In this document: positions 9,339-38,893 of the stretch, piece by piece | How positions within the stretch are numbered: position 1 is the stretch's first letter | Layout of the letters: each line of letters opens with the position of its first letter | Assembly: GCA_003166955.1 (NCBI GenBank) | Contig: PMUI01000018.1 | Coordinates: 1 to 38,893, forward strand | Direction: 5' to 3' | Length of the DNA: 38,893 nt | Source of the DNA: Acidobacterium sp. | Lineage (GTDB): Bacteria > Acidobacteriota > Terriglobia > Terriglobales > Acidobacteriaceae | Notes under the pieces: generated by a model | What the model was told of the DNA's origin: nothing | Databases searched by the model: none | What the model saw: only the letters and a program-made list of their open reading frames with translations | Position numbers and translations under genes: made by a program

Positions 9339-9347
9339 CCTTTCCGC

Positions 9348-9393
9348 GGGTGCCCCATCCTGGTCGCGCGTCTTTTGCGCGAGCAGGGTGGGA
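9348..9393. repeat. Hairpin repeat element, GGGTGCCCCAT family
   Basis: GGGTGCCCCAT is followed by an 11-bp stem with one mismatch (CCTGGTCGCGC / GCGCGAGCAGG, 9359-9387), a 7-nt loop GTCTTTT, and GGTGGGAT. A second copy lies near 17.97 kb with a different, matching stem. Confidence 0.6.
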
Positions 9394-9508
9394 TCGCTTC
9401 CCGAACCCCGAAAGAATCCGGGCGCCCCATCACTTGACTCCCAACCCGACGCCCTTCCCCACCAGCTACCGGCCACCACCTACCAGCTCCCCCGCATCCC
9501 ACGTGTGA

Positions 9509-17933: not shown

Positions 17934-17961
17934 GTCCGCGGCCCAGGGCGTGTACAAATCC

Positions 17962-18007
17962 GGGTGCCCCATTCTGATCGCGCGCCTTTTGCGCGATCAG
18001 GGTGGGG
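17962..18007. repeat. Hairpin repeat element, GGGTGCCCCAT family, second copy
   Basis: GGGTGCCCCAT precedes a perfect 10-bp stem CTGATCGCGC / GCGCGATCAG (17974-18000) with a 7-nt loop GCCTTTT, then GGTGGGG. Compared with the copy at 9348, the stem sequence differs but the arms still pair. Confidence 0.65.
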
Positions 18008-18044
18008 TCGTTGATGACCCGCGACCAGCTGCCAGCCTTTTCAG

Positions 18045-20157: not shown

Positions 20158-20210
20158 GATCACCAGCAGCCCCCAAAGCAAACTCCAGCGCCCGGTCTGC
20201 ATCTCCGCGC

Positions 20211-20280
20211 AGCTTCCAGCTTCCAGCTTCCAGCTTCCAGCTTCCAGCTTCCAGCTTCCAGCTACAGGCTACCGGCTCTC
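20211..20280. repeat. AGCTTCC heptamer array, seven perfect units
   Basis: Seven perfect AGCTTCC units followed by three degenerate ones (AGCTACA, GGCTACC, GGCTCTC). The stop codon of the minus-strand tsaC-like gene (20262-20264) lies inside the eighth unit. Confidence 0.85.
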
Positions 20281-21362
20281 ATCAACCTGTCCCGCACTGC
20301 CACCCCAATCCCCAACGGCGCCGGCAGCGGACACACAATCACCGTTACTCCCGCCGCATCCAGCCATCGCAGCCCGGCATACAGCTTCTGTGCCAGCCCC
20401 TCCGGCTTCTCCCACGGTCCCCAGTGGTAGACATGCACCGTGTCGTAGCCCATCGTGAATCCCCGCAGGTCGAACGGCTTCTTCCGCATCAGGCTCAGCG
20501 CTGCCATGAACCCCTCCGGTGCCATTACACCCACCACCTCGCCGGCCTCCTCCAGGCGATTCACCTCATCGATCAGCGCCACATCCAGGCCCGGCGAAAG
20601 TCCTTCTACCAATACCAGCCGCGCCCGCGGCGCATAATGCCGCACGCCCATCCCCGGTGCCGGAGCCGCCTTCCGAGACTCACCCTCCTCGACTTCCGTC
20701 CGATACACCACCTCGCCCCGGCACACCGAACGAAGCTGCTCCAGCGTGATCATCCCTGACCGATAAATCACGCACTCCCCCTCCCGCACATCCACTATCG
20801 TCGACTCCACCCCGTGCGTCGTCTCCCCTCCATCGAGAATCGCGTCGATCCGCCCCTCCAGATCCTCGGCCACGTGAAATGCATTCGTTGGGCTAATCCG
20901 CCCAAACCGGTTCGCGCTCGGCGCCGCCACCGGAACCCCCGCTACCCGCAGCAGCGCCTGCGCCACAGGATGCGCCGGCATCCGCACCCCAACCTTCTCC
21001 AGCCCAGCCGTCACCAGCTCCGGAACCTTCGCGCTCCTCGGCAGCAGCAGCGTTAGCGGCCCCGGCCAGAAAGCCTCCATCAGCCGATAAGCATCCTGGT
21101 TGACCTCCGCCGCGACCATCTCCAACATCTCGCGATCTCCAACGTGCACGATCAACGGATCCCAGCTCGGCCGCTCTTTCGCCGCAAAAATCTTCTTCAC
21201 TGCATCGGCAACCAGCGCGTTCGCCCCCAACCCGTACACCGTCTCCGTAGGAAACGCCACCGTCCCGCCACCGCGCAGAATCTCCGCCGCCCGAGCAATC
21301 GCCGCCCGCGATCCCTTCTCCTCCAGATCCCCAACATCCACCGCGAGCCTCTGCGTCTGCAC
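20262..21362 (-). CDS. tsaC: Threonylcarbamoyl-AMP synthase, Sua5 type
   Basis: 366 residues from GTG 21362 (GGGAG upstream). It makes threonylcarbamoyl-AMP from threonine, bicarbonate and ATP for t6A modification at position 37 of ANN-decoding tRNAs. Motifs: AEILRGGGTVAFPTETVYGL (the YrdC fold), KERPSWDPLIVHV, FWPGPLTLLLPRS, VGVRMPAHPVAQALL, PVAAPSANRFGRISPT, and the family ending with a C-terminal Sua5 domain after a linker (VRHYAPRARLVLVE). The length fits Sua5 (about 340) rather than short TsaC (about 190). The last residues come from a heptamer array that supplies the TAG. Confidence 0.92.
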   Translation of the reverse strand: MQTQRLAVDVGDLEEKGSRAAIARAAEILRGGGTVAFPTETVYGLGANALVADAVKKIFAAKERPSWDPLIVHVGDREMLEMVAAEVNQDAYRLMEAFWPGPLTLLLPRSAKVPELVTAGLEKVGVRMPAHPVAQALLRVAGVPVAAPSANRFGRISPTNAFHVAEDLEGRIDAILDGGETTHGVESTIVDVREGECVIYRSGMITLEQLRSVCRGEVVYRTEVEEGESRKAAPAPGMGVRHYAPRARLVLVEGLSPGLDVALIDEVNRLEEAGEVVGVMAPEGFMAALSLMRKKPFDLRGFTMGYDTVHVYHWGPWEKPEGLAQKLYAGLRWLDAAGVTVIVCPLPAPLGIGVAVRDRLMRAGSL

Positions 21363-27948: not shown

Positions 27949-28031
27949 AACAGGGTTGCTGATGAGGCCGCGTACTCATCGCTCGCCGCGTGATGCGGTC
28001 AGGAGGGCGCCCCGCCAAATCGCGGAATTAG

Positions 28032-28046
28032 GTTCCCTGTTCCCTA
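28032..28046. repeat. Heptamer pair overlapping the NQK gene stop codon
   Basis: GTTCCCT GTTCCCT A: the minus-strand TAG (28044-28046) is formed by the end of the second unit. Confidence 0.5.
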
Positions 28047-28226
28047 TTTCTTCAGAATCGCCTTCTGATTCGCCAGAATCTCCTTCTGGTTCGCCAGAAT
28101 TGCGTCCAGCGACTTCTGGTTTTTCTTAATGTCTCCCTGGTTCGCGAGAATCGTCTTCTGGTTCGCAAGAATGCTCTTCTGATTCGCAAGGATCGTCTTC
28201 TGATTCACGACTACTTCATCGGCCAT
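28044..28226 (-). CDS. NQK-repeat coiled-coil protein, 60 residues
   Basis: ATG 28226 follows GGAGAG by 6 nt. The product begins MADEVVVNQKTILANQKSIL and goes on as 7-residue repeats of the form NQKxILA: NQKTILA, NQGDIKK, NQKSLDA, NQKEILA, NQKAILKK. The strict seven-residue period with Ile/Leu at one face predicts a parallel coiled coil, with Asn at a core position favouring a defined oligomer. It is a tiny uncharacterised family I have seen in Acidobacteria and Proteobacteria. At DNA level it is a degenerate 21-bp repeat. Function unknown. Confidence 0.7.
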   Translation of the reverse strand: MADEVVVNQKTILANQKSILANQKTILANQGDIKKNQKSLDAILANQKEILANQKAILKK

Positions 28227-28549
28227 AGTTTCTCTCCAGTCTCCGTTAGGAAATGCAGCCGCCATTGTCGCCGATTCCCCCGTCCCCGCAAAACAACCTC
28301 CAGTGGAAATTTTTCTCCACCCTCCGATGGACCAGGCTTCAATGACCCGCCCTCGCCGCTTGGCCCTTACCCCGGGCTCGGTTCTGAATGGTTTTCCTGT
28401 TCCCTGTTCCCTGTTCCCTACTCCCTGGTTTTTTGTCAAGTGGGAGCCCCGAAATCCAAAGTAATGACCCCTGACTTACAACGACTTACACGCCAACAAC
28501 ACCAAAGATATTTGGCAGGTTTATTCCCCAAACTTGGTATTCTGATAAT
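28227..28549. other. Gene-free region between the NQK gene and repeat copy A
   Basis: It holds the promoter side of the NQK gene, the heptamer array at 28393-28427, and the tandem ACTTACAACGACTTACAC near 28475. The latter is unassigned. No gene was recognised. Confidence 0.4.
28393..28427. repeat. TTCCCTG heptamer array
   Basis: Units TTTCCTG, TTCCCTG, TTCCCTG, TTCCCTA, CTCCCTG. Confidence 0.7.
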
Positions 28550-29080
28550 AGAGGGTAAGAAAAAGAAGGGCTGCTCATCCGAGCGGCCTTTTTCTATTGC
28601 CGGAATCGGAGGGAAATCAATGAGGACCGCAAGAGCAGGCATCTCCGTGAGCCACTCACCCTGCGCCCCGCACTCCGCACCCTGTCGCGTCCAGGGCCAG
28701 GCAGGAAGCGGCCCTGCGGCCGCGTTTACGTCACACTCAACCGCCTCTGCTGCAAACTCGGCCATGTCTGCTGTTAACTCGGCCATGCGCCCGTCAAACT
28801 CGGCCATGTTGACGTCAACCTCGACCGCACTCCATCTGACCCCGCCTCAATCATCTGCCCTCAACTCGGCCGAGTTTGACGCAAACCCAACCGAGCCTGG
28901 TTCAACCTCGAACGAGATCGTAACTAACAGGTACCAAGTCACTTCTCCAGGGTACTCAAGCCGGGTAATTTCGCTAACTCGCACAAAACAAGTCATCGGC
29001 CATTTTTCGAGAGGGGCACTTTTTTCAGGGAATGCGAACAAACAGCGAATCGAAGAACCAGTCGCCGCTCAGACGGACGG
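28550..29080 (+). repeat. Long inverted repeat, copy A
   Basis: This ~531-bp block recurs in inverse orientation at 38222-38755. Order in both: AGAGGGTAA, a terminator-like hairpin with loop ATCC, a T-run, SD plus ATCAATGAGGACCGCAA, an array of 21-bp-spaced AACTCGGCC motifs, then CACTTCTCCAGGGTACTCAA, CAAAACAAGTCATCGGCCAT and GCGAACAAACAGCGAATCGA. In this copy motifs start at 28755, 28776, 28797, 28818, 28839, 28863, 28884 and 28905. Small indels that are not multiples of three separate the copies, so a conserved protein is unlikely. The block ends 83 nt before the aroB start. Identity is high but I could not compute it. Confidence 0.85.
28569..28588. terminator. Terminator-like hairpin of repeat copy A
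   Basis: Stem GGCTGCTC / GAGCGGCC (one G-T pair), loop ATCC, then TTTTTCT; an A-rich run precedes it, so it could act in both directions. No plus-strand gene lies close upstream. Confidence 0.65.
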
Positions 29081-29132
29081 GAAGTCGACTCAAACCTTCC
29101 TTTGGCCTTCCGTGGGGAGGCTCCGGAACTCA

Positions 29133-29160
29133 GTGCCCTGTACCCTGTACCCTGTACCCT
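29133..29160. repeat. GTACCCT heptamer array abutting the aroB start
   Basis: GTGCCCT followed by three GTACCCT units, ending 3 nt before ATG 29164. The nearest GGAGG is about 45 nt upstream, too far to serve aroB. Confidence 0.75.
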
Positions 29161-29163
29161 GAA

Positions 29164-30264
29164 ATGCGCACGATCCACGTCAAAACCGCTTCCGCCGATT
29201 ACCCGGTCTTCATCGGCCGCAATCTCCTGGCCCAGGTTGCGCGCCATGTCCAAAGGTCTGTCCAAAAGTCGGCCGCACGCAGTACCTTTGTTCTCACTTC
29301 GCCCGAAATCTGGGCCCTCTGGGGCAAACAGTTCCTCGCCCCCTTCCCAAAAGGCCAGCAGCCCACAGCCCTCTTCCTCCCCGCCGGCGAGCGATTCAAG
29401 CGCCTCGCCCAGGTCGAACGCCTCGCCTCCGAACTCGCCGAAGCCGGAGCCGACCGCTCCTCGCTCCTCATCGCCTTCGGCGGCGGCATCATCGGCGACC
29501 TCGCCGGATTTCTCGCCGCCATCTACATGCGCGGCATCGACTACATCCAGGTTCCCACCACTCTGCTCGCCCAGGTCGACTCCTCGGTCGGCGGCAAAAC
29601 CGGCGTCAACCTCGCCGCCGGCAAAAATCTCATCGGAAGCTTCCATCATCCGCGCGCTGTCTTCGCCGACATCGACGTTCTGCAAACCCTCCCCGACCGC
29701 GAGCTTCGCGCCGGCCTTTTCGAAAGCGTCAAAGCCGGCATCATCCGCGACGCTGCACTCTTCCGCTTCATGGAACAGAACTCGAAGACCATCCTCGCCC
29801 GCGAACCCGCTGCCCTCGAGCGCGTCATCGTCGCATCGATCCGCATGAAAGCCGGCGTCGTCGCCATCGACGAGCGCGAGTCCGGCCTGCGCATGATCCT
29901 CAACTACGGCCACACGCTCGGCCACGCCATCGAAGCCGCCACCGGCTACCGCACGCTTCTCCACGGCGAGGCAATCGCCTGGGGCATGCTCGCCGCGCTT
30001 CAGATCGCCCTCGCCCGCAACACCGTCGGTTCCGATCAGGCCGAGCGCATCGAGCAAACCATCCTCGCCTACGGACCGCTCCCGCCTTTCCGCGCCACGC
30101 CCGCCAAACTCCTCGCGGCCGCCGGTCGCGACAAAAAGAATCGTGCCGGAACCCGGCGCTTCATCCTCCCCAAAGGCATTGGTAACGCAGTTATTGTCGA
30201 AGATGTAATGGAAGCGGAGCTCCTCTCCGCAATCAACTGGACTCTAGCCCATGCCCATAAATGA
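29164..30264 (+). CDS. aroB: 3-dehydroquinate synthase
   Basis: 366 residues ([20 protein letters not shown]), usual length. It converts DAHP to 3-dehydroquinate in the shikimate pathway, using NAD and a metal ion. NAD-loop [20 protein letters not shown], then [20 protein letters not shown] and [20 protein letters not shown]; the metal site includes [13 protein letters not shown] and [11 protein letters not shown]. The ATG lacks an SD and follows a heptamer array directly. phhA lies 75 nt downstream; linking aromatic amino acid synthesis and breakdown is plausible, but the codon style changes abruptly between them. Confidence 0.95.
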
Positions 30265-30339
30265 GCCTCAATGCAAATCAGTTTGACATCTCTGCATGGT
30301 CGGTGAAATTCTCTAACGTTTTGCCGGGGGTGATGATCG

Positions 30340-31122
30340 ATGAATCCACCAGGGGTGGCTGGAGCGGAGACACAGAGGCAGGCAAGCGCGCCGCTCACGG
30401 TCGCCGAGCCGTACCTGATCCAACAGAAATGGGACGCATACAACGACGAGCAGCACGCGGTGTGGGCGGAGCTGGTGCGGCGGCGGATGCCGCAGTTGCG
30501 GGAGCACGCGGCCGAGGAGTATCTGAACGGGTTTGAGCAGATCGGGCTTCGGGAAGACACGATTCCGAACCTGGCCGATGTGAACCGGAGGCTGGGGCCG
30601 CGGACGGGATGGAATGCGACGCCGGTGAGCGGATTCCTGCCGCCGGATGCGTTCTTCGAGATGCTGGGCGCGCGGCAGTTTCCGACGACAACGTACATTC
30701 GGAGCCGCGAGGCGATGGAGTACACGCCGGAGCCGGATATTTTTCATGACGTGTTTGGGCATGTGCCGATGCACGCGCATCCGGTGTTTGCGGATTTTCT
30801 GCAGCACTACGGGCGGGTGAGCGCGGCGCTCATGAGTGACAAAGACAAGCTCGAAAAGATGGGCCGCCTGTTCTGGTTCACTGTGGAGTTTGGGGTGATC
30901 CGGCAGAAGGGGAAGGTGAAGTTGTACGGCAGCGGACTGATCTCGTCGCATGGCGAGGGGACGCACGTGATCGAAGGTAAGCCGGAGATTCGGGACTTCA
31001 ATCTCGACCAGGTGCTGGAGCAGAAGTTTCTGGTGTCGCAAGAGCAGAAGGTGTTGTACTCGGTGGAGTCGTTCGACCAGATTTACGAGGCGGCGCAGGA
31101 AGCGGAGAAGCGGCTCGCCTAA
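30340..31122 (+). CDS. phhA: Phenylalanine 4-monooxygenase
   Basis: 260 residues. It hydroxylates phenylalanine to tyrosine with tetrahydrobiopterin, O2 and iron. Iron ligands are visible: His136 and His141 in DIFHDVFGHVPMHAHP and Glu183 in LFWFTVEFGVI; also RQFPTTTYIRSREAMEYTPE and LYGSGLISSHGE, typical of bacterial aromatic amino acid hydroxylases. GGGGGTGAT precedes ATG 30340. Third codon positions are G-rich (GTG, CTG, GCG), unlike the C-ending codons of most plus-strand genes here, so this segment may have been inverted or acquired. A pterin-4a-carbinolamine dehydratase is not in the window. Confidence 0.95.
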   Translation: MNPPGVAGAETQRQASAPLTVAEPYLIQQKWDAYNDEQHAVWAELVRRRMPQLREHAAEEYLNGFEQIGLREDTIPNLADVNRRLGPRTGWNATPVSGFLPPDAFFEMLGARQFPTTTYIRSREAMEYTPEPDIFHDVFGHVPMHAHPVFADFLQHYGRVSAALMSDKDKLEKMGRLFWFTVEFGVIRQKGKVKLYGSGLISSHGEGTHVIEGKPEIRDFNLDQVLEQKFLVSQEQKVLYSVESFDQIYEAAQEAEKRLA

Positions 31123-31349
31123 CACCTCGGCGCGGTGGGTTAAGACGGAGGTGGGATTCACGGGCGGCGGCGCGGTTCGTTACTTTGTGAGCCTGCGCAC
31201 GTCTGAACAAGCGGCACAGCGGCTCACCTGAGTAACGGCAGGTTTGCAATATTTGCAGAGAATTTATCTGTGCGGATGCACAATACATAAATTGGTCTCG
31301 TTTGCGGGCGCGTCTGCATTTACGACCGCGACGAGCGCAGGAGGAAACG

Positions 31350-32021
31350 TTGCCGCGGATCCACTTTCATCAACAACTCGCGGAACTGAAGGACAAGCTG
31401 CTGGCGATGGCTGCGCTGTCGCAGCAGGCAGTGGAGTCGGCGGTGGACGCGTGGCTGCAGCGCGACGAGGGTCTTTGCCAGTACGTGCGCGAGAACGAGA
31501 CGGCGATCAACACGGCGCAGCGCGAAGTGGACGAGATGGCGTACCAGCTGCTCTCGCGGGAGCAGCCGATGGCGATCGATCTGCGGTTCATCCTGGCGGT
31601 GATCAAGATTAACGGCGACCTGGAGCGGATCGGTGACATGGCGGTGAGCATCGCAATTCGGACGCTCGATTTGCTGGATCAGGATCCGCTCGATTTGCCG
31701 GTGGACATTGCCGGGATGGGCGATTTTGCTGGGCGGATGATCCGGACGGCTCTGCAGTCGCTGCTGGACGGCGACGCGCTGGTGGCCGAGTCGGTCCGCG
31801 ACATGGATGACGAGATCGACCGGATGAACCGGGTGGCGATTGCCGATCTGACCAGGGTAATCCAGGAGCGGCCGGAGACGGCGGATCAGGCGCTGCCGGC
31901 AATTCTGATTTCGCGAAACCTGGAGAGGATTGCTGACCACGCGACGAATATCGCGACGGACGTGATTTTCTGGGTGCGGGGCGCGGACTTGCGGCATCAG
32001 CTTTCGATGGCCGTCGACTGA
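31350..32021 (+). CDS. phoU: Phosphate transport regulator PhoU
   Basis: 223 residues from TTG 31350, chosen because GGAGGAAA lies about 5 nt upstream. It is a peripheral regulator of PhoR/PstSCAB in phosphate homeostasis. Two PhoU repeats: LKDKLLAMAALSQQAVESAV, REVDEMAYQLLSREQPMAID, LRFILAVIKINGDLERIGDM and, in the second repeat, MDDEIDRMNR and ISRNLERIADHATNIATDVI; the ExxxD metal sites are conserved. No pst or phoR gene is in view. Codons are G-ending like phhA. The 227-bp gap before it contains TTTGCA twice (TTTGCAATATTTGCA), possibly regulatory. Confidence 0.9.
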   Translation: MPRIHFHQQLAELKDKLLAMAALSQQAVESAVDAWLQRDEGLCQYVRENETAINTAQREVDEMAYQLLSREQPMAIDLRFILAVIKINGDLERIGDMAVSIAIRTLDLLDQDPLDLPVDIAGMGDFAGRMIRTALQSLLDGDALVAESVRDMDDEIDRMNRVAIADLTRVIQERPETADQALPAILISRNLERIADHATNIATDVIFWVRGADLRHQLSMAVD

Positions 32022-32035
32022 CGGCCAACTGGCAT

Positions 32036-32281
32036 TCAGCGTTGAGAAGAGCTGCGATTCGCCGTCACGGGTCTCACTGCACCAACCGCATAGCCGCGTC
32101 GATAAATCCCCTCGCCGCATTGATCAAGCGTTTCGCAGTGGCAGTTTTGCATCATCCTTCTCATCAGACCCTGCATTGACTTGATTCCGTCCATCAAGTC
32201 GTCGAGTTCCTCCAGTTTTCTTCGCGACAGTTCCTGCCACCGTTCTGAGGCTCGAGTCGCACCGCGGAAGCCGAAGAACAA
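32036..32281 (-). pseudogene. MerR-family regulator C-terminal fragment
   Basis: About 50 residues (RWQELSRRKLEELDDLMDGI, KSMQGLMRRMMQ, NCHCETLDQCGEGIYRRG) match the dimerisation helix and Cys-containing effector loop of metal- or redox-sensing MerR regulators. The N-terminal HTH domain is missing upstream on this strand: a DinB remnant on the other strand occupies that DNA. The two cysteines in HCETLDQC would be the metal-site residues in a complete protein. It is a truncated remnant. Confidence 0.55.
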
Positions 32282-32311
32282 CCGCCGGTTCGACCTTCTC
32301 CGATCTCGCCG

Positions 32312-32440
32312 CTATCAGCGACTACGGTAACTCGCTTGTCGCTCATCCTTGAGTCCCTGGTTCACACCTTCGACCACTATGGGCAGATGGTCGAGTACCT
32401 GCGCATGAACGGTGTGGTGCCACCGGCCAGCCGCCCATGA
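32312..32440 (+). pseudogene. DinB-family C-terminal remnant
   Basis: The frame ending at TGA 32438-32440 reads [20 protein letters not shown] and [13 protein letters not shown]. The H-x-x-x-HYG-x-x-V-x-Y-L-R-x-NG-x-VPP-x-S pattern is the C-terminal helix of DinB/DUF664 four-helix metal-binding proteins (bacillithiol transferase-like fold). The first three helices are missing, so only a 3' stub remains. Confidence 0.55.
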
Positions 32441-32770
32441 AGCGAGCACCCCTGCTAAGCGGCCTTCGCCGGCGACAACCACATACTGCTCCTCGAGCGG
32501 TCCGCCTCGGCAAAGTGGCAAAGCCGCGACTTCACTCACGCCAATCCCGCCACCAAACCGGTCACTAAGAATTCCGTATCCGATCAAACCTCTTTCGCCT
32601 ATGCTAGGGAAAACCCCCGAGCTGGAAATCCTGCGTCCGCCAGTCTCGAAGGCCCCCGTCCATGAGCAGCCCCCATGCCCCGCTCCGCAGACGGCGACCC
32701 AGTTGCCTTCCAGTGAAGGCGCGACTTAAAACCGCTGTTGCCGTTAGATACCCATGAGGGCCACGAACCA
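32441..32770. other. Gene-free gap before the Ser/Gly-rich secreted protein
   Basis: No recognisable gene. A -10-like TATGCT is at about 32599 without a clear -35. The DNA between the DinB remnant and the next gene probably belongs to the same decayed segment. Confidence 0.3.
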
Positions 32771-34126
32771 ATGAACGTCTCGTCTGCTCGCGCAAGCCTG
32801 CTTCTCTTGGCCATTCTCTGCCTGTCCAGTGTCTTCGCACCCGCCCAGAGCAAACCGAAACCCGCAACGTCATCGAAGTCCGCTTCTTCGTCTTCGTCAG
32901 GCGGAAGCAGCGCGGGCGGCCACAGCGGAGGCGGAGGCGGTGCCGCGGGAGGCAGCGCTGCAGGAGGCGCTGCAGCGGACTCTTCCACCGGCCCGTTCTC
33001 CATCGAGACCGAGATGTTCACCTACAAGGCGGTGGAGGAGAACAGCGAGGTCATCGCCTGTGACATCGCCCGCTATCTCTTCCAGGGGGAAGTCGTCGAA
33101 GCACCGCCCGGATCCCACGCTCCCTGCGCCATCAGCAACGCCGCTCAGTCAAACCCAGGCATCGTCATCGTTTCGTCCGACAGCTCACTGATGTCCGACT
33201 TTCAGCTCTGGCGGGCCGACATGGCCACCATGAGCGCTCTGGAAGCAAGGGCAAAGAATGTCTGCGTTGCCGAAGCGAAAAATGAGAATGGAGAACCCGT
33301 TCCCGCCCAGCAGCCACACATTAAATCAAGGGGCCTCGGAGGCGCCGTCGCCGGACTCGCGCAAGTCACTCCTCAGGGCCAGGCGATAGGAGCCGCCCTG
33401 GCGCTCTTCAGCAGCAGCCAAACGGTCAATTCCACTGTAGGCACCGTCGAAAACCCGGCGCTGATCAATGAGGTCGCCCGCGAGCTCCGTTCTCTCAACG
33501 TTCTCGTCCTCGTGCCCGAGCTCTATAATCCCGGCTCTCTCGGCCCCGCGGACTATACCAATTCCCCCTATCTGCAGAATCTCGAAAACTTCAATTCCTC
33601 CTACGAAAAGTGCACGACGGCCAAAGCCGGATATCCCGAAAACGCCCCCGAAGCTGCGAGCATCAACAGCCTCATCGGCAGCATGGATGCCTTCCTGAAG
33701 GGGGTCATGGCCGGACCCGCACCCGCTGCTTCGGCTGAGGACACATCGGACGCGACCAACGCACCCTCCCACTTCGCCGCGATCTTCACTGCGGATGAAG
33801 TCGCCAAACAGATGGGCTTCACCGGTAATGGAGCGAGCGGAGCCAGCCCAACCTGGCAGCATGTGCTCTGGCTCAAGGCGCTCGAGTCAGGCGGCTCCGT
33901 CGATCGCCAAAGCAATCTTTTCGGAACGAAGATCACTTTCGGCGGCGGCGCAGTCGACTCCTATTCTGTCTTCCGACTCAACGGACAGCTGGTCTGCTCC
34001 GGCAACGTCTTCAACTTCCAAAGCCCCGTCCGAACCAAGGATCTCCAGAAGACCTTCCGCGCGATGCCGATCGACAATCCGGCCCATCCCCCCATGCTCC
34101 ACAGCACCTGCGGACAACTACCGTAG
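32771..34126 (+). CDS. Secreted hypothetical protein with Ser/Gly-rich linker
   Basis: 451 residues from ATG 32771. Signal peptide ARASLLLLAILCLSSVFAPA is followed by a low-complexity linker of Ser, Gly, Ala and Thr (about residues 26-75). The mature domain begins FSIETEMFTYKAVEENSEVI and includes DIARYLFQGEVVEAPPG, VIVSSDSSLMSDFQLWRADM and AAIFTADEVAKQMGF. No family recognised. Possibly periplasmic. Upstream GAGGG is a distant SD, so the start is moderate. The downstream 34286 gene, 159 nt away, is another secreted protein, and they may be co-regulated. Confidence 0.7.
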   Translation: MNVSSARASLLLLAILCLSSVFAPAQSKPKPATSSKSASSSSSGGSSAGGHSGGGGGAAGGSAAGGAAADSSTGPFSIETEMFTYKAVEENSEVIACDIARYLFQGEVVEAPPGSHAPCAISNAAQSNPGIVIVSSDSSLMSDFQLWRADMATMSALEARAKNVCVAEAKNENGEPVPAQQPHIKSRGLGGAVAGLAQVTPQGQAIGAALALFSSSQTVNSTVGTVENPALINEVARELRSLNVLVLVPELYNPGSLGPADYTNSPYLQNLENFNSSYEKCTTAKAGYPENAPEAASINSLIGSMDAFLKGVMAGPAPAASAEDTSDATNAPSHFAAIFTADEVAKQMGFTGNGASGASPTWQHVLWLKALESGGSVDRQSNLFGTKITFGGGAVDSYSVFRLNGQLVCSGNVFNFQSPVRTKDLQKTFRAMPIDNPAHPPMLHSTCGQLP

Positions 34127-34285
34127 TTCTGACTTGAGCTGAAGCTCCCTCCGTCTTAGTTGACCTTCATTCCCCGCAGGGCTGGTGGCCAAAAAAGAGA
34201 TGTGCGGCTGATGACCATCCATAGCCCTCCGCGTCACCTCCAGGAGGATTAGACTTAGACTTATCTCCGACTGGGAGGCGAATGG

Positions 34286-34909
34286 ATGCCCTGCCGCCGA
34301 GCTCTCACCGTATCCGTGTTGTTGCTGTCTTGCCTGGTTGTTGCCGCAAAGGGCAAGAAAAAAGCCAGTCTTCCGCTGTACGTACTTCAGGCGCATACAG
34401 CATGGGTGATCGTCGATCCCCAGGCCGGAATGGATATCACGGATCCGAACGCCAACCGCATCGCCCGCGAAGACGTGGAAAATGCTCTGGCAAAGTGGGG
34501 AAGGCTCACGCCCGTCACCGACCCGTCGCAAGCCGACCTCATCATCGTCATCCGCAAGGGCAACGGCAAACTAGTCCAGCCAACCATAGGGGGCGCGCCA
34601 GCTAACAATCCACCTCCGGTGATCGGTCAGCGGACAGATACCGGGATCACTGCTTCGGGTCGAGCGGGACCGCCACTCGAGACATCCGATCCGCATCCGC
34701 AAATCGAAGTCAGCTCCCCGGATGACACGTTCGTTGTCTACCGTGGTAATCCTGCCTACAACAATGCCCCCACTTCAGACAATCCGCTCGACAGCCCGCC
34801 TGTATGGCGATACATCGCGAAAGACGCGCTTGAATCTCCCAGTGTTCCCGCGGTCGATCAGTTCCGGAGGGTCATTGCCGAGTCGGAGAAGGCTTTGGCA
34901 GGACCGTAA
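34286..34909 (+). CDS. Secreted Acidobacteria-type hypothetical protein
   Basis: 207 residues from ATG 34286 with GGGAGG about 7 nt before it. Signal peptide RALTVSVLLLSCLVVAA, then KKKASLPLYVLQAHTAWVIV, DPQAGMDITDPNANRIARED and VENALAKWGRLTPVTDPSQA, DLIIVIRKGNGK. I recall this LPLYVLQA..WVIVDP..G pattern from uncharacterised Acidobacteria proteins, but no function is assigned. The acidic and Pro-rich C-terminal half is probably disordered. It is the last plus-strand gene before a parS-like palindrome. Confidence 0.75.
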   Translation: MPCRRALTVSVLLLSCLVVAAKGKKKASLPLYVLQAHTAWVIVDPQAGMDITDPNANRIAREDVENALAKWGRLTPVTDPSQADLIIVIRKGNGKLVQPTIGGAPANNPPPVIGQRTDTGITASGRAGPPLETSDPHPQIEVSSPDDTFVVYRGNPAYNNAPTSDNPLDSPPVWRYIAKDALESPSVPAVDQFRRVIAESEKALAGP

Positions 34910-34933
34910 GACACACATTCACTCGACGCGCAG

Positions 34934-34949
34934 CGTTTCACGTGAAATC
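34934..34949. promoter_or_regulatory. parS-like palindrome
   Basis: CGTTTCACGTGAAATC contains the perfect 12-bp palindrome TTTCACGTGAAA and matches the Bacillus-type parS TGTTTCACGTGAAACA at 13 of 16 positions. It is intergenic, between convergent genes. Other CACGTG words in the window (e.g. 6781, 20870) lie inside genes and match only one half. Confidence 0.5.
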
Positions 34950-34974
34950 TGCCTGGCTCCTAAGGCAGCTCCCG

Positions 34975-34995
34975 GTGCCCTGTGCCCTGCTCTCA
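34975..34995. repeat. GTGCCCT heptamer array with a stop codon
   Basis: Units GTGCCCT, GTGCCCT, GCTCTCA. The TGA of the minus-strand gene at 34993-36252 is the last three bases of the third unit. Confidence 0.6.
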
Positions 34996-36252
34996 TTTCT
35001 TCTTCTTCGCCACCATCTCGGGCGGCGTCCGCGGCGGCGGCACACTCACCGGCGGCAAATCGTACACCTCAATCGTCCCGTTCCGCAGTATTGCGAACCG
35101 CTTCCCGTCAGGAGACAGCGCCACATTCTGTCCCGCCGTCAGCACCGGCGACGCGTCCCGCACCAGCACCAGCTTCCCGCTTTCCGTGTCGTACACGCCG
35201 GCGATCTGCGCCTGAACATCCTCCGGGTACAGCGCGTCGAATGTCGAGATCGGCCGGCTCACTGCCACCGACTCATACACGAACCGGCTCCCGTTCTCCG
35301 CAGAATCGAACCATCCCCACACGAACCGGTTCTGCCAGCGGTCCCGCCACAGCTCCCCGTCGCCCGCGGTTGAAACCGCAATGACTTCGCGTTCGTCGCT
35401 GTCCCCATAACACCCCACCATCAGCGCAACACTCGCGCTCAGCGGCCGCGCCGACGGCTGGCACTGCGACTTCACCTGCGCCACGATCCTCGGGTCGCCG
35501 TGGAAGGGTACGTCCCGCATCACCCAGAAGCCCTGCCCCTTCCCCTCCAGCAAATCCAGCAGCCCGTCGCCCATCAGCGGAAGCAGCGTCGCACTCTGCC
35601 CTTCGGTCGCCAGCATCGGCGTCTTCTCGCCCAGCGGGAAGATCATCACCTTGACCGGTTCACCCGTGCCCAAACGCCGAGGCTCCGCCGGCTCCGTATG
35701 CAGCTTCTCCGGCTCGTTCGTCTCCACCACCATCAGCTTGCGATCGGACGAAATCTGAATCGCCCGGATGCCTGCGCTGAACGTCATGAACGGCTCCAGT
35801 TCCAGCGACTGATCCGTCACGAACAGCGAATCCCGCCGCCGCACCAGGAATTTCCCATCCTCGAAAGGCCACAGATACTGCGACCGGTCGTGCATCCGCC
35901 ATTCCGCCTTCCGCACAACCTCGCCTGTCTTCAAATCCAGCAACAACGCCCGAATCTGCTGGTCGTCATCCTCAGCCGGATCGTTCGGCGCCCGTTGCAG
36001 CAGCCCACCCACCCGAAACGTAAACAGCAAATGCTCGTTATCGAAAAACCCGATCGCCGCCGACGACAGCCGATAGGTCAGGTAAAACGTACCCGGCGGC
36101 TTGTATCCCAGCGGAGCCACTTCAATGCTCACAGCCGGTTTTTGTTCAGCCGGAGGATTCGGCGCCGGTTTCTTCTCCGCCAGGGTCGCCAACGCGATCA
36201 GCGCGACCATCCCTGTCAAGCCTGCCCGTCTCCTGATTCCCACGCGCGCCAT
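34993..36252 (-). CDS. Secreted beta-propeller-like hypothetical protein
   Basis: 419 residues from ATG 36252. An N-terminal segment RRRAGLTGMVALIALATLAE is a signal or anchor; the next 30 residues are Pro/Lys-rich. Then beta-rich repeats: AAIGFFDNEHLLFTFRVGGL, RALLLDLKTGEVVRKAEW, RDSLFVTDQSLELEPFMTFS and IRAIQISSDRKLMVVETNEP. Near the end SPDGKRFAILRNGTIEVYDL is a propeller-like blade. It is typical of Acidobacteria proteins with WD/TolB-like propellers. The Lys-rich C-terminus (AKKKK) is odd. Function unknown. Confidence 0.7.
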   Translation of the reverse strand: MARVGIRRRAGLTGMVALIALATLAEKKPAPNPPAEQKPAVSIEVAPLGYKPPGTFYLTYRLSSAAIGFFDNEHLLFTFRVGGLLQRAPNDPAEDDDQQIRALLLDLKTGEVVRKAEWRMHDRSQYLWPFEDGKFLVRRRDSLFVTDQSLELEPFMTFSAGIRAIQISSDRKLMVVETNEPEKLHTEPAEPRRLGTGEPVKVMIFPLGEKTPMLATEGQSATLLPLMGDGLLDLLEGKGQGFWVMRDVPFHGDPRIVAQVKSQCQPSARPLSASVALMVGCYGDSDEREVIAVSTAGDGELWRDRWQNRFVWGWFDSAENGSRFVYESVAVSRPISTFDALYPEDVQAQIAGVYDTESGKLVLVRDASPVLTAGQNVALSPDGKRFAILRNGTIEVYDLPPVSVPPPRTPPEMVAKKKK

Positions 36253-36342
36253 CGAGTCCTGTTTCCATTCTTCGCGCCTTGCGCCGCGGAATCAAATCCC
36301 GCGCCCAGCGAGCCGCAAATCCCGCACTTCGCGCAATACTAT

Positions 36343-36371
36343 TTGACGGCGCGCCGCAATGTGGGTATAAA
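36343..36371 (+). promoter_or_regulatory. Sigma-70 promoter for the TPR gene
   Basis: TTGACG (36343-36348), a 17-nt spacer and TATAAA (36366-36371): one mismatch in each hexamer. The predicted start lies about 57 nt before ATG 36436. Confidence 0.75.
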
Positions 36372-36435
36372 ACGGTGTCTACTGGTTGCAGGAAGACGCC
36401 GCGTGCCCCGGCTGCGTCTTCGAGGCAGATCGATT

Positions 36436-37002
36436 ATGGCCCGAATGCAGGAAGCACGCGAAATACCCACCCCTCGCCGCTCTCCACGCTCACCCTCCGC
36501 CAAATCCGCTGCGCCGTCGAGCGAGAATAAACAAATGCTCCAGGATTACCAAAACGCCCTCCAACTCATGCAGCAGGGCAAGTTCGAGAAGGCTCGCGTC
36601 CTTTTCGAGAAGCTCACCCGCGATGGATCTCCCGAAATCCTCGAGCGCTCTCGCGTCTACATCACCGTCTGCGAGCGCAACTCCAGAGAATCCTCGCTCA
36701 GCTTCAAGACTCCCGAAGAGCAGTACGACTATGCGGTTTCCCTGCTCAACGCCGGCTCCTATGAAGAAGCCCGCGACCAGTTCGAGTCCATCCTCGGTTC
36801 CGCTCCTCAGGCGGACTTTGCCCACTACGGCATGGCGTTGCTCAGCAGCATGACCGGCCAGGCCGAGGAAGCACTCGACCACCTCGGAAAAGCGATCGAG
36901 ATTAATCCATCGAATCGCATTCAGGCGCGCAGCGACCCCGACTTCATCGATATGGCCGACGATCCCCGCTTCACCGAGCTTCTTTACCCGGAGTCCAGCT
37001 AG
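36436..37002 (+). CDS. Tetratricopeptide repeat protein
   Basis: 188 residues from ATG 36436; GAGG lies about 10 nt upstream. A basic, Ser/Pro-rich N-terminal 30 residues are followed by TPR helices: DYQNALQLMQQGKFEKARVL, FEKLTRDGSPEILERSRVYI, PEEQYDYAVSLLNAGSYEEA and ALLSSMTGQAEEALDHLGKA. TPRs mediate protein interaction. A similar architecture is seen in Acidobacteria small TPR proteins of unknown partner. It has its own promoter, 17+hexamer type, upstream. Confidence 0.8.
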   Translation: MARMQEAREIPTPRRSPRSPSAKSAAPSSENKQMLQDYQNALQLMQQGKFEKARVLFEKLTRDGSPEILERSRVYITVCERNSRESSLSFKTPEEQYDYAVSLLNAGSYEEARDQFESILGSAPQADFAHYGMALLSSMTGQAEEALDHLGKAIEINPSNRIQARSDPDFIDMADDPRFTELLYPESS

Positions 37003-37011
37003 CGGCGAGCG

Positions 37012-37039
37012 GGAAGCTGGAAGGTAGAAGCTGGAAGCG
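37012..37039. repeat. Heptamer array in the inverse orientation
   Basis: GGAAGCT, GGAAGGT, AGAAGCT, GGAAGCG: the reverse complement of AGCTTCC units. With the array at 37084-37139 it forms an inverted pair after the TPR gene that could fold as a hairpin in RNA. Confidence 0.65.
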
Positions 37040-37083
37040 AATTGCCCCGGACGACCTCGCAGAATGGATCGGAACCGGGCTCC

Positions 37084-37139
37084 GAGCTCCCAGCTTCCTG
37101 CTTCCCGCTTCCTGCTTCCTGCTCCCAGCTTCCTGCTAG
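37084..37139. repeat. CTGCTTC heptamer array, eight units
   Basis: Eight in-phase units (GAGCTCC, CAGCTTC, CTGCTTC, CCGCTTC, CTGCTTC, CTGCTCC, CAGCTTC, CTGCTAG) lie 30 nt upstream of the yvcK start; a shorter heptamer pair (GTCCCTG, ATCCCTC) follows up to the base before the start. Confidence 0.75.
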
Positions 37140-37168
37140 ACTCGTAAGCGTAAGTCCCTGATCCCTCA

Positions 37169-38212
37169 GTGACTCAAGCTGCGAACTCCATCGCTCCCGA
37201 AGGCCTGCGCGTCGTCGCAATCGGCGGTGGCACCGGCCTCTCCACCCTGCTGCGCGGCCTCAAGCTCCGCGTTCCGCACCCCACCCGCCCGCTCGCCCCC
37301 GGCACCCCCGACCCACTCATCGCCGACCTCACCGCGGTCGTCACCGTCACCGACGATGGCGGCTCCAGCGGCCGCCTCCGCCGCGAGTTCAAGATGCTTC
37401 CCCCCGGCGACCTGCGCAACTGCATGGTCGCGCTCTCCGAGGACGAGCGCCTCCTCTCCCGCCTCTTCAAGCACCGCTTCCGCAATGCCGGCGCGCTGGG
37501 CGGCCATAATTTTGGCAACCTCTTCATCGCCGCCCTCACTGAAATGACCGGCGACTTCGCCCAGGCCATCCGGCTATCCGCCGAAATCCTCGCCACCCGC
37601 GGCCACATCTTCCCCGCCACCGCCACCAACGTCACCGTCACCGCCCGCATGGAAGACGGCACCATCGTCCGCGGCGAAACCAACATCACCGCCAGCCGCC
37701 AGCGCATCGTCGAGCTCATGCTCGACCCACCCGATCCGCCGCCGCCCCCCGAGACCCTCCAGGCCATCGCCGCCGCCGACCTCATCACCGTCGGCCCCGG
37801 CTCGCTCTACACCAGCATCGTCACCAATCTCCTCGTTCACGGCATTCCCGAAGCCCTCGGCGCCGCTCAGGCCACGCGCGTCTTCATCTGCAATCTCATG
37901 ACCCAGGCCAACGAGAGCCTGCACCTCACCGCTTCGCAGCACATCGAGCGCATCTACGAGCACGCCGGCCGCCCCATCTTCGACTACGCCCTCGTCAATA
38001 CCGCTCCCGTCTCGCGCGAACTCCGCGACCGCTACGCTGCCGAAGGCGCCGAGATCACCATCGCCGACGTCGACCGCATCGAAGCCCTCGGCGTTCAGTG
38101 CATCACCGGCAACTTCGCCGCCGAAGGCGACGTCCTCCGCCACGCCGCCGACCGAGTCACCGACGCGCTTCTGTCTCTCCCGGTCCGTTCCGCCGCTGTT
38201 GCCGCCCACTGA
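37169..38212 (+). CDS. yvcK: YvcK/CofD-family gluconeogenesis factor
   Basis: 347 residues from GTG 37169. The family binds UDP-sugars or phospho-substrates and is needed for growth on gluconeogenic carbon and for cell-wall shape in Bacillus. Motifs: VVAIGGGTGLSTLLRGLKLR, VVTVTDDGGSSGRLRREFKM, LPPGDLRNCMVALSEDE, AGALGGHNFGNLFIAALTEM and AADLITVGPGSLYTSIVTNL. The start lacks an SD and follows two heptamers. The repeat copy B begins 10 nt after the stop. Alternative CofD/FPL transferase activity is unlikely without F420 genes. Confidence 0.9.
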   Translation: MTQAANSIAPEGLRVVAIGGGTGLSTLLRGLKLRVPHPTRPLAPGTPDPLIADLTAVVTVTDDGGSSGRLRREFKMLPPGDLRNCMVALSEDERLLSRLFKHRFRNAGALGGHNFGNLFIAALTEMTGDFAQAIRLSAEILATRGHIFPATATNVTVTARMEDGTIVRGETNITASRQRIVELMLDPPDPPPPPETLQAIAAADLITVGPGSLYTSIVTNLLVHGIPEALGAAQATRVFICNLMTQANESLHLTASQHIERIYEHAGRPIFDYALVNTAPVSRELRDRYAAEGAEITIADVDRIEALGVQCITGNFAAEGDVLRHAADRVTDALLSLPVRSAAVAAH

Positions 38213-38221
38213 TCCTGGGTC

Positions 38222-38755
38222 CCTGTCCGTCTGACGGCTTTTTTCGATTCGCTGTTTGTTCGCATTCCCCGAAAAAATGCCCCCCTCCGAAAAAATGGCC
38301 GATGACTTGTTTTGAGTGAGTTAGCAGAGTTACCGGGCTTGAGTACCCTGGAGAAGTGACGTAGTACCTGTCAGTTACGACCTCGGTCGAGGTTGATATA
38401 AGCTCGGCTCGGTTTGCATCAAACTCGGCCGAGTTGAGGGTAGATGATTGAGGCCGGGTCACATGGAGTTCGGCCGAGGTTGATGTCAACAGGGCCGAGT
38501 TTGATGGGTACTCGGCCGAGTTAACAGCAGACACGGCTGAGTTTGTAGCAGAGGCGGTCGAGTTTGAGGCACACACGGCCGTGAGGCCGCTTCGTGAGTG
38601 GCCCCAGGGTGGCCCTGGATGCGACAGGGCGGAGTGCGGGGCACAGGACGAGCGTGGCTCGCGGCAACGGCTGCTTTGCGGTCCTCATTGATTTCTCCCC
38701 GGTTCAGACAATAGAAAAGGCCGCCGGATGGCGGCCTTTTTCTTTTTTACCCTCT
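38222..38755 (-). repeat. Long inverted repeat, copy B
   Basis: The minus strand of this block matches the plus strand of copy A (28550-29080) from AGAGGGTAA to CAGACGGAC. The 21-bp-spaced motif (GGCCGAGTT on the plus strand) occurs at 38385, 38406, 38427, near 38452, 38472, 38493, 38514, 38535, 38556 and 38577. It fills the whole gap between yvcK and the Flp pilin gene, and its hairpin stands where the pilin gene's terminator is expected. Confidence 0.85.
38719..38736. terminator. Rho-independent terminator after the Flp pilin gene
   Basis: A 7-bp stem GGCCGCC / GGCGGCC with loop ATCC read on the minus strand, followed by TTTTC; on the plus strand a longer T-rich run follows. It lies 37 nt after the pilin stop and is also the hairpin of repeat copy B. 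Confidence 0.8.
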
Positions 38756-38772
38756 GTTACCGGCCTCAATTC

Positions 38773-38893
38773 TTAGAGGCTGCTCCCGATCGTATTAAAT
38801 TCGTTCGATATTTTGTTGTTGAGGCCCTTGAGCGCGGCGATGGCAGCAACGGCGATCAGCGCTGCAATCAGGGTGACGTGCCCCCGAAAAACT
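38773..38893 (-). CDS. Flp-type pilin, C-terminal part
   Basis: About 40 codons enter from the right edge: VTLIAALIAVAAIAALKGLN, then NKISNEFNTIGSSL and TAA. The hydrophobic IAALIAVAAIAAL helix followed by a polar KISNxFNxIGxxL tail is the hallmark of Flp/Fap type IVb pilins assembled by Tad machinery. The leader and processing site lie beyond the window. Tad secretion genes would be expected upstream on the minus strand, to the right of the window. Confidence 0.85.
   Translation of the reverse strand, partial: VFRGHVTLIAALIAVAAIAALKGLNNKISNEFNTIGSSL

Follow-up and report, generated by a model that had tools for sequence, protein, structure and literature searches.

Two inverted repeats beside aroB and cofD in an Acidobacterium contig: probable gene-less members of a family of dispersed units that can carry a CCCH zinc-finger gene

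The DNA considered here, positions 1 to 38,893 of contig PMUI01000018.1 of Acidobacterium sp. (assembly GCA_003166955.1), is referred to in its full length of 38,893 nucleotides (nt) as the window. It contains two copies of a repeat element in inverted orientation, one at about 28434-29054 on the plus strand and one at 38759-38240 on the minus strand. Copy 1 is situated directly upstream of aroB and points in the same direction; copy 2 adjoins the stop codon (38773-38775) of a gene that, judging by its motifs, would encode a Flp pilin-like protein. The original prediction had recognized the two as an inverted pair, and they are indeed 82% identical (1-519 of 521 nt in the pairwise alignment, E 2e-145), with main inverted arms at 28694-29030 and 38268-38604 that match over 337 nt at 84%, further shorter arm pairs and a longest common exact run of 27 bp.

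Copy 1 extends on the plus strand from a conserved TGTCAAG to the end of the shared tail (28434-29054); its limits come from the family alignment on the 5' side and from the 27-nt run common to copy 2 on the 3' side, and the true ends are uncertain. The start of copy 1 was moved upstream of the position first proposed, to about 28434, so as to include a conserved promoter-like box. This box, TTGGCA ... TGGTATTCT at 28512-28543, is of the extended -10 type and may function as a promoter. It is followed by a G+C-rich, terminator-like hairpin with ATCC loop and TTTTT run (28562-28594), a Shine-Dalgarno (SD)-like CGGAGGG with the ATG of a short frame beginning ATGAGGACCGCAA (28607-28622), an array of 21-nt palindromic units of the AACTCGGCCGAGTTTGACGTC type (28729-28920) with an internal anchor, ATCTGACC, at 28834, and array end plus tail, ending in ACAAAACAAGTCATCG (28834-28998). 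Copy 2 (38240-38759, minus strand) is 5'-truncated and lacks the promoter box according to sequence, alignment and promoter scan. It features the hairpin GGCCGCC-ATCC-GGCGGCC followed by TTTT (38715-38741), the short-frame ATG (38686-38688) and array end plus tail (38300-38463), which is matched at 114 bits by R1, a sequence-only profile of this region. Several details had been read correctly from the outset: both copies run from the hairpin through SD-like stretch, ATGAGGACCGCAA and 21-nt array to the tail, and the stems differ yet pair (GGGCTGCTC/GAGCGGCCT with one G-T pair versus GGCCGCC/GGCGGCC, ATCC loop in both). The reading frames are likewise broken between the copies, as that of copy 1 is open for 180 codons from the ATG and that of copy 2 meets a stop codon after 55 codons, shortly beyond the beginning of the array; every antisense frame contains at least one stop in both copies (stretches 28620-29000 and 38290-38688). 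Among the own-genome copies read, the SD-like stretch and the ATGAGGACCGCAA start are common to copy 1, copy 2 and a third locus, L003.

The pair belongs to a dispersed family, in agreement with the earlier suggestion. In the organism's own genome (G000, Acidobacteriota, 5.4 Mb, 142 contigs) array and tail are present at 19 distinct loci (R1, E <= 1e-4), with 17 matches obtained by DNA search, and many more occur in relatives: R1 matches (E <= 0.01) were found in 9 of the 12 genomes of the genus that were searched, with one match each in G001 and G011 and none in G004, G007 and G008. With stricter filters, two of 60 genomes sampled from the taxonomic family were positive, namely the own genome and G069 from another genus, in which two diverged copies were seen, by eye, to retain the hairpin and start codon as well as array and tail. 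When the element including its 5' module was searched at the DNA level, matches appeared in all 12 genus genomes; outside the genus a single match of 38 nt occurred in one of 29 genomes. The exact promoter pattern was encountered in 16 stretches, 11 of which stem from Acidobacterium sp. metagenome-assembled genomes from palsa samples, the other five belonging to unrelated organisms and looking like chance by their context. The family appears restricted to one genus of soil acidobacteria, through which the element appears to have spread. A literature search covering titles and the starts of abstracts, with few subscription journals and no preprints, yielded no description of this element among the papers listed.

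Element anatomy was analyzed in a sample of 76 copies, 16 from the own genome and 60 hand-chosen among the R1 matches listed, such that shares are not a census; L119 and L168, an identical 3.1-kb sequence in two genomes, were both counted. Thirteen copies with a weak anchor were left out of the open-frame, codon-position, stop-placement and spacing tests, leaving 63, and kept in the unit-half, gene-trace and promoter counts; for spacing, nine further copies without a detected tail were omitted, leaving 54. The elements begin with TGTCAAG, followed by a promoter-like TTGGCA...TGnTATnCT, a short leader, a G+C-rich hairpin with T run, an SD-like stretch with start codon, an optional gene, the 21-nt array, the anchor (CTGAC...AATCA), the tail (GAAAACAAGTCACCG) and often a G-rich end. 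On the sense strand, 50 of 73 copies are preceded by a relaxed promoter core, compared with none on the opposite strand; a stricter pattern, tried first, gave 37 and one of 73, respectively. Stem sequences of the hairpin vary between copies (GGCCGC, GCCTCG and GCCCCGGC types), and the longest perfect Watson-Crick stem in 39 promoter-hairpin stretches averages 7.4 bp compared with 4.5 bp in 2-mer shuffles. A perfect stem of at least 6 bp is found in 20 of these stretches, in one of them (L160) outside the hairpin position, while the hairpin of copy 1 stays below 6 bp under this strict rule. Pairing is kept despite base changes in general but not universally. Anchor and tail are 146-151 nt apart in 52 of 54 copies, with all three phases represented, and this spacing is conserved although only 38 of 63 copies can be paired, in separate pairs, at 70% identity or more. 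From promoter to anchor, gene-bearing copies measure 632-853 nt (five measured) and gene-less copies 109-325 nt in 44 of 45 cases, the remaining one 621 nt.

The optional gene, located between hairpin and array in 9 of the 76 sampled copies (one, L150, cut by the contig start), encodes a CCCH-type zinc-finger protein of 149-222 residues in array-bearing copies. The conserved gene region comprises 109 positions and starts with M..ECxFILPNGxxCRCxATRNQxFCRHHAP. Protein searches retrieved 16 strong gene copies (E below 1e-17), spread over 9 of the 12 genus genomes, as well as two weak matches, one with stops, among 49 other genomes; a class-wide sample of 121 genomes, in which the number of other genus members is not specified, gave a gene match in the own genome only. 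Substitutions distribute over the codon positions as 139/106/213 and the ratio of nonsynonymous to synonymous change (pN/pS) is 0.29-0.72 in six pairs: the zinc-finger gene is under purifying selection at the protein level. An R1 match follows directly downstream on the same strand in 11 of the 16 strong gene copies (10 strong matches, one weak) and in none of eight weak gene matches. Promoter and hairpin were seen by eye upstream of all six strong gene copies read, and the distant gene relatives L188 and L190 also lie downstream of a hairpin, in L190 with another kind of 3' repeat. From these few cases, the type of 3' repeat seems to go with the protein subfamily. The members tried gave no significant sequence match in Pfam, NCBIfam, PHROGs or PDB. 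The Cys-Cys-Cys-His spacing resembles that of the CCCH zinc fingers of Pfam DUF5763 (PF19067) and TRM13, with scores below the curated cut-offs (DUF5763: 18.6 bits for the distantly related L180, which belongs to another genus, and 11.3 bits for L178; zf-TRM13: 10.4 for L008). One viral-contig scan with one protein revealed no relative that would point at virus origin. As a separate observation, the hairpin module, mostly together with the promoter, stands beside another 3' repeat, CTGAT...TCAATCACCTGrGTCAAATGGGCC...AATCAATCAAG.AGTCAAAAGGTTGAC, in L051, L059, L190 and upstream of L016, and L058 is similar; in L190 this repeat comes after the distant gene relative mentioned above.

A direct link between gene-bearing and gene-less copies is provided by L131 and L132, both from G010. 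They are 90-92% identical on either side of about 440 nt of gene sequence that is absent from L131. In L131, roughly the first 14 codons of the gene remain, a stretch that the gene profile barely recognizes (E 0.002), and the array follows on from them. L131 is thus an internal deletion of the gene-bearing type represented by L132, and the single direct case. For the two window copies, descent from a gene-bearing type is suggested by the shared architecture.

Neither window site is occupied in the relatives read, indicating lineage-specific insertions. Among 27 aroB and cofD loci searched with R1, matches were confined to the two loci of the own genome, with nothing at the aroB loci of 11 relatives or at the cofD loci fetched. 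The corresponding stretches, nine for cofD, hold other content (L195 and L209 end less than 400 nt away at the contig end), and L197, L198 and L199 have the same coiled-coil-like gene upstream of aroB and no element separating the two. These empty sites are comparisons between species rather than strains, and they render the proposed mobility probable. The further idea that the 9-kb segment between the copies is flipped by recombination is not supported, as the left (aroB) junction has the window orientation in all three informative relatives, those that share the left neighbour, and the longest exact run shared by the copies is the 27 bp mentioned above. The same order and orientation of aroB and cofD in all six relatives with both genes on one contig is compatible with either state. 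Independently, the phhA-phoU block (window about 30300-32100) is inverted relative to aroB in comparison with L197, L198 and L199 (phhA only in L195), with breakpoints that do not coincide with the two repeats. The 21-nt repeats at 28027-28214 are apparently part of a minus-strand gene with heptad repeats, coiled-coil-like, that is also found upstream of aroB in relatives.

Taken together, we consider the two repeats probably to be gene-less members, similar to miniature inverted-repeat transposable elements (MITEs), of a family of dispersed mobile transcription units restricted to the genus. When complete, such a unit would comprise the promoter-like box, a short leader containing a strong 5' hairpin, the CCCH zinc-finger gene, the 21-nt array and the tail. 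Loss of the gene through internal deletion could spare the ends together with hairpin, array and tail, which is how some MITEs arise from larger elements, and the units would move via a recombinase acting in trans. The window copies may well have inserted separately beside aroB and cofD, with no joint action. MITEs and other small non-autonomous elements such as Correia, ERIC and RUP are likewise short, dispersed and lineage-specific, carry embedded motifs and include gene-less copies beside gene-bearing ones (PMC2229807). In common with MITEs there are several dispersed copies, empty sites and, in the one case of L131, an internally deleted derivative; in contrast to MITEs, neither terminal inverted repeats nor a target-site duplication nor a transposase-encoding partner was found here, and the gene encodes a zinc-finger protein rather than a recognizable transposase.

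Several observations weigh against this reading. In five of five elements the longest inverted match between end 60-mers is 5-7 nt, within the range of shuffles, with ends that are approximate; as to target-site duplications, the flanks of copy 1 proved too diverged and repetitive for a clear reading. No transposase was found among the element members tried, and the three Y1 transposase genes of the own genome share no convincing element sequence. L114 and L158 share flanks in two species, so not all copies are recent. Five of the 16 strong gene copies have no R1 match: L177, L178, L186 and L189 possess promoter and hairpin and, by eye, no 21-nt array, and L184 displays a different 21-nt array. 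Both L132 and L135, its twin at 94% identity, are located at contig ends and may be assembly variants. In 66 of the 76 sampled copies there is no significant gene trace, such that descent by deletion is documented for one copy, and the short frame of the window copies bears no detectable relation to the zinc-finger gene.

As to the array, its units are palindromic, in idealized form of the TCAAACTCGGCCGAGTTTGA, TCAATCACGACCGTGATTGA or TCATTCGCACACGCGAATGA type depending on the copy, and over all 76 copies the unit halves match better within a copy than between copies at four of ten paired positions, with the strongest co-variation at k=5 (0.51 versus 0.29). Within a copy, halves taken from a single unit agree no more closely than those taken from separate units; the outermost position is the one exception. 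A row of sites for a dimeric binder with a drifting sequence preference would be consistent with this pattern, as would homogenized repeats, and RNA pairing is not required. Repeats of about 21-22 nt in helical phase and with conserved spacing are known from the iteron arrays of plasmid origins and from multi-site transposon ends such as those of Tn7. The element resembles them in repeat length, helical phase and spacing and differs in that no Rep or TnsB gene was seen in the elements read and in that the elements are chromosomal with many copies. The simplest candidate for a binder is perhaps the element's own zinc-finger protein, and binding could serve regulation or mobilization. A more far-reaching version is conceivable, although we regard it as rather doubtful: the family would be a new mobile unit without a recognizable transposase, the CCCH protein from its sole gene would read its own array, the two would diversify together and the protein would be supplied in trans to gene-less copies.

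A structured regulatory RNA, in which the array is transcribed from the element promoter and folds into tandem hairpins, is unlikely. The pairing kept with changed bases in the 5' hairpin of many copies and the co-varying unit halves speak in its favour, the latter being offset by the equally good match between halves of different units. Array and tail yield a weak consensus fold (-2 kcal/mol, 12 pairs, two changed on both sides), the folding energy of copy 1 is ordinary (z -0.61), and pairing between anchor and tail, striking by eye in L221 and L144, showed no co-variation and failed a permutation test over 53 copies. Rfam 15 gave no window match at gathering score, and seven loci gave 17 sub-threshold hits. 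By consensus fold, energy, half complementarity and anchor-tail pairing, no folded RNA could be demonstrated for array and tail; the 5' hairpin alone stands.

Translation from the ATG through array and tail into a small secreted or disordered protein with a 7-residue repeat (NSAEFDA) appears very unlikely. Of 63 copies, 53 have an open forward frame throughout the 186 nt examined, compared with a mean of 34 (maximum 47) after column shuffling, there are 17 stops instead of 37.8 in column shuffles and 6 instead of 18.1 under random placement of changes in one copy per pair (0 of 500 as low), and many copies offer an SD-like stretch with start codon. However, conservation is highest at third codon positions. 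When similar copies were compared in 19 pairs, each copy used once, array and tail changes by codon position amount to 243/255/174 and pN/pS in the open frame is 1.36; four of the remaining frames lie at 0.80-0.90 and one reverse frame at 1.37. Single-base shifts in the anchor-tail distance place the tail in all three phases, and in several gene-bearing copies the zinc-finger open reading frame enters the array in another frame. Recombining similar copies revealed no significant avoidance of stops (11 versus 13.0, fraction 0.17), and the random-placement result is explicable by conserved motif positions. Despite the two shuffling and placement results, codon positions and phase lead us to reject a coding array; selection as protein is not demonstrable for array and tail, and we take the open frame mostly as a by-product of a stop-free motif. 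No single frame under purifying selection across copies emerged for array and tail in these tests, and the original view of a non-coding element holds for this part, two mild contrary results notwithstanding; it does not apply to the family as a whole, whose complete members carry a selected gene.

Just as improbable is an assignment to repetitive extragenic palindromes (REP) or bacterial interspersed mosaic elements (BIME) moved by a RAYT or TIRYT tyrosine transposase. The palindromic units are clustered, the own genome contains three Y1 transposase genes and Acidobacteria are described as carrying TIRYTs (PMC3733652). The three Y1 loci, however, gave no R1 match and nothing beyond matches of 11-19 nt with E 0.02 or worse, and the elements are far longer and carry gene, promoter and tail. 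REP/BIME with RAYTs and TIRYTs are likewise clusters of short palindromes (PMC3733652), whereas the element combines a fixed 21-nt phase with promoter, gene and tail, and the Y1 genes of this genome lack element sequence. That the repeats are vertically inherited regulatory regions of aroB and of the cofD neighbour, as the position of copy 1 just upstream of aroB in the same direction might suggest, is hardly credible and is refuted at both sites as far as these are readable, since 11 relatives lack the element at aroB and nine lack it at cofD (with the limits given above for L195 and L209).

Some further features of the window deserve mention. The contig apparently ends in an insertion sequence inside the Flp pilin-like gene (38773-38893, both named by eye), and the remaining half of a gene of this kind is found at one end of contig C34 (L048), downstream of another promoter-hairpin copy. 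Tandem repeats of 7 bp (CCCTGTT and GCTTCCA types) occupy intergenic positions at 20210-20284, 28401-28432, 29135-29166 and 37077-37137, and heptamer repeats, considered as a possible insertion target, show no more than a weak excess near element ends (lag-7 runs of at least 12 in 4% versus 1%, 78 stretches each). A second dispersed hairpin repeat, CGGGTGCCCCATCCTG...CAGGGTGGG, resides at 9347-9396 and 17961-18010; it has 92 matches with at most two mismatches in the own genome versus two for the reversed control and was seen by eye, with changed stems, in stretches from several relatives.

If the two repeats are indeed gene-less members of a mobile family, a 'non-coding repeat' of soil acidobacteria would be explained as the stripped form of a gene-carrying unit. 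The family offers a compact and testable pair, a short zinc-finger protein and a strictly spaced array with changing palindromes. Should the protein read the array, the pair would constitute a natural system on a small scale in which specificity between protein and DNA (or RNA) changes, and should the protein also drive movement, a transposition system without a known catalytic domain.

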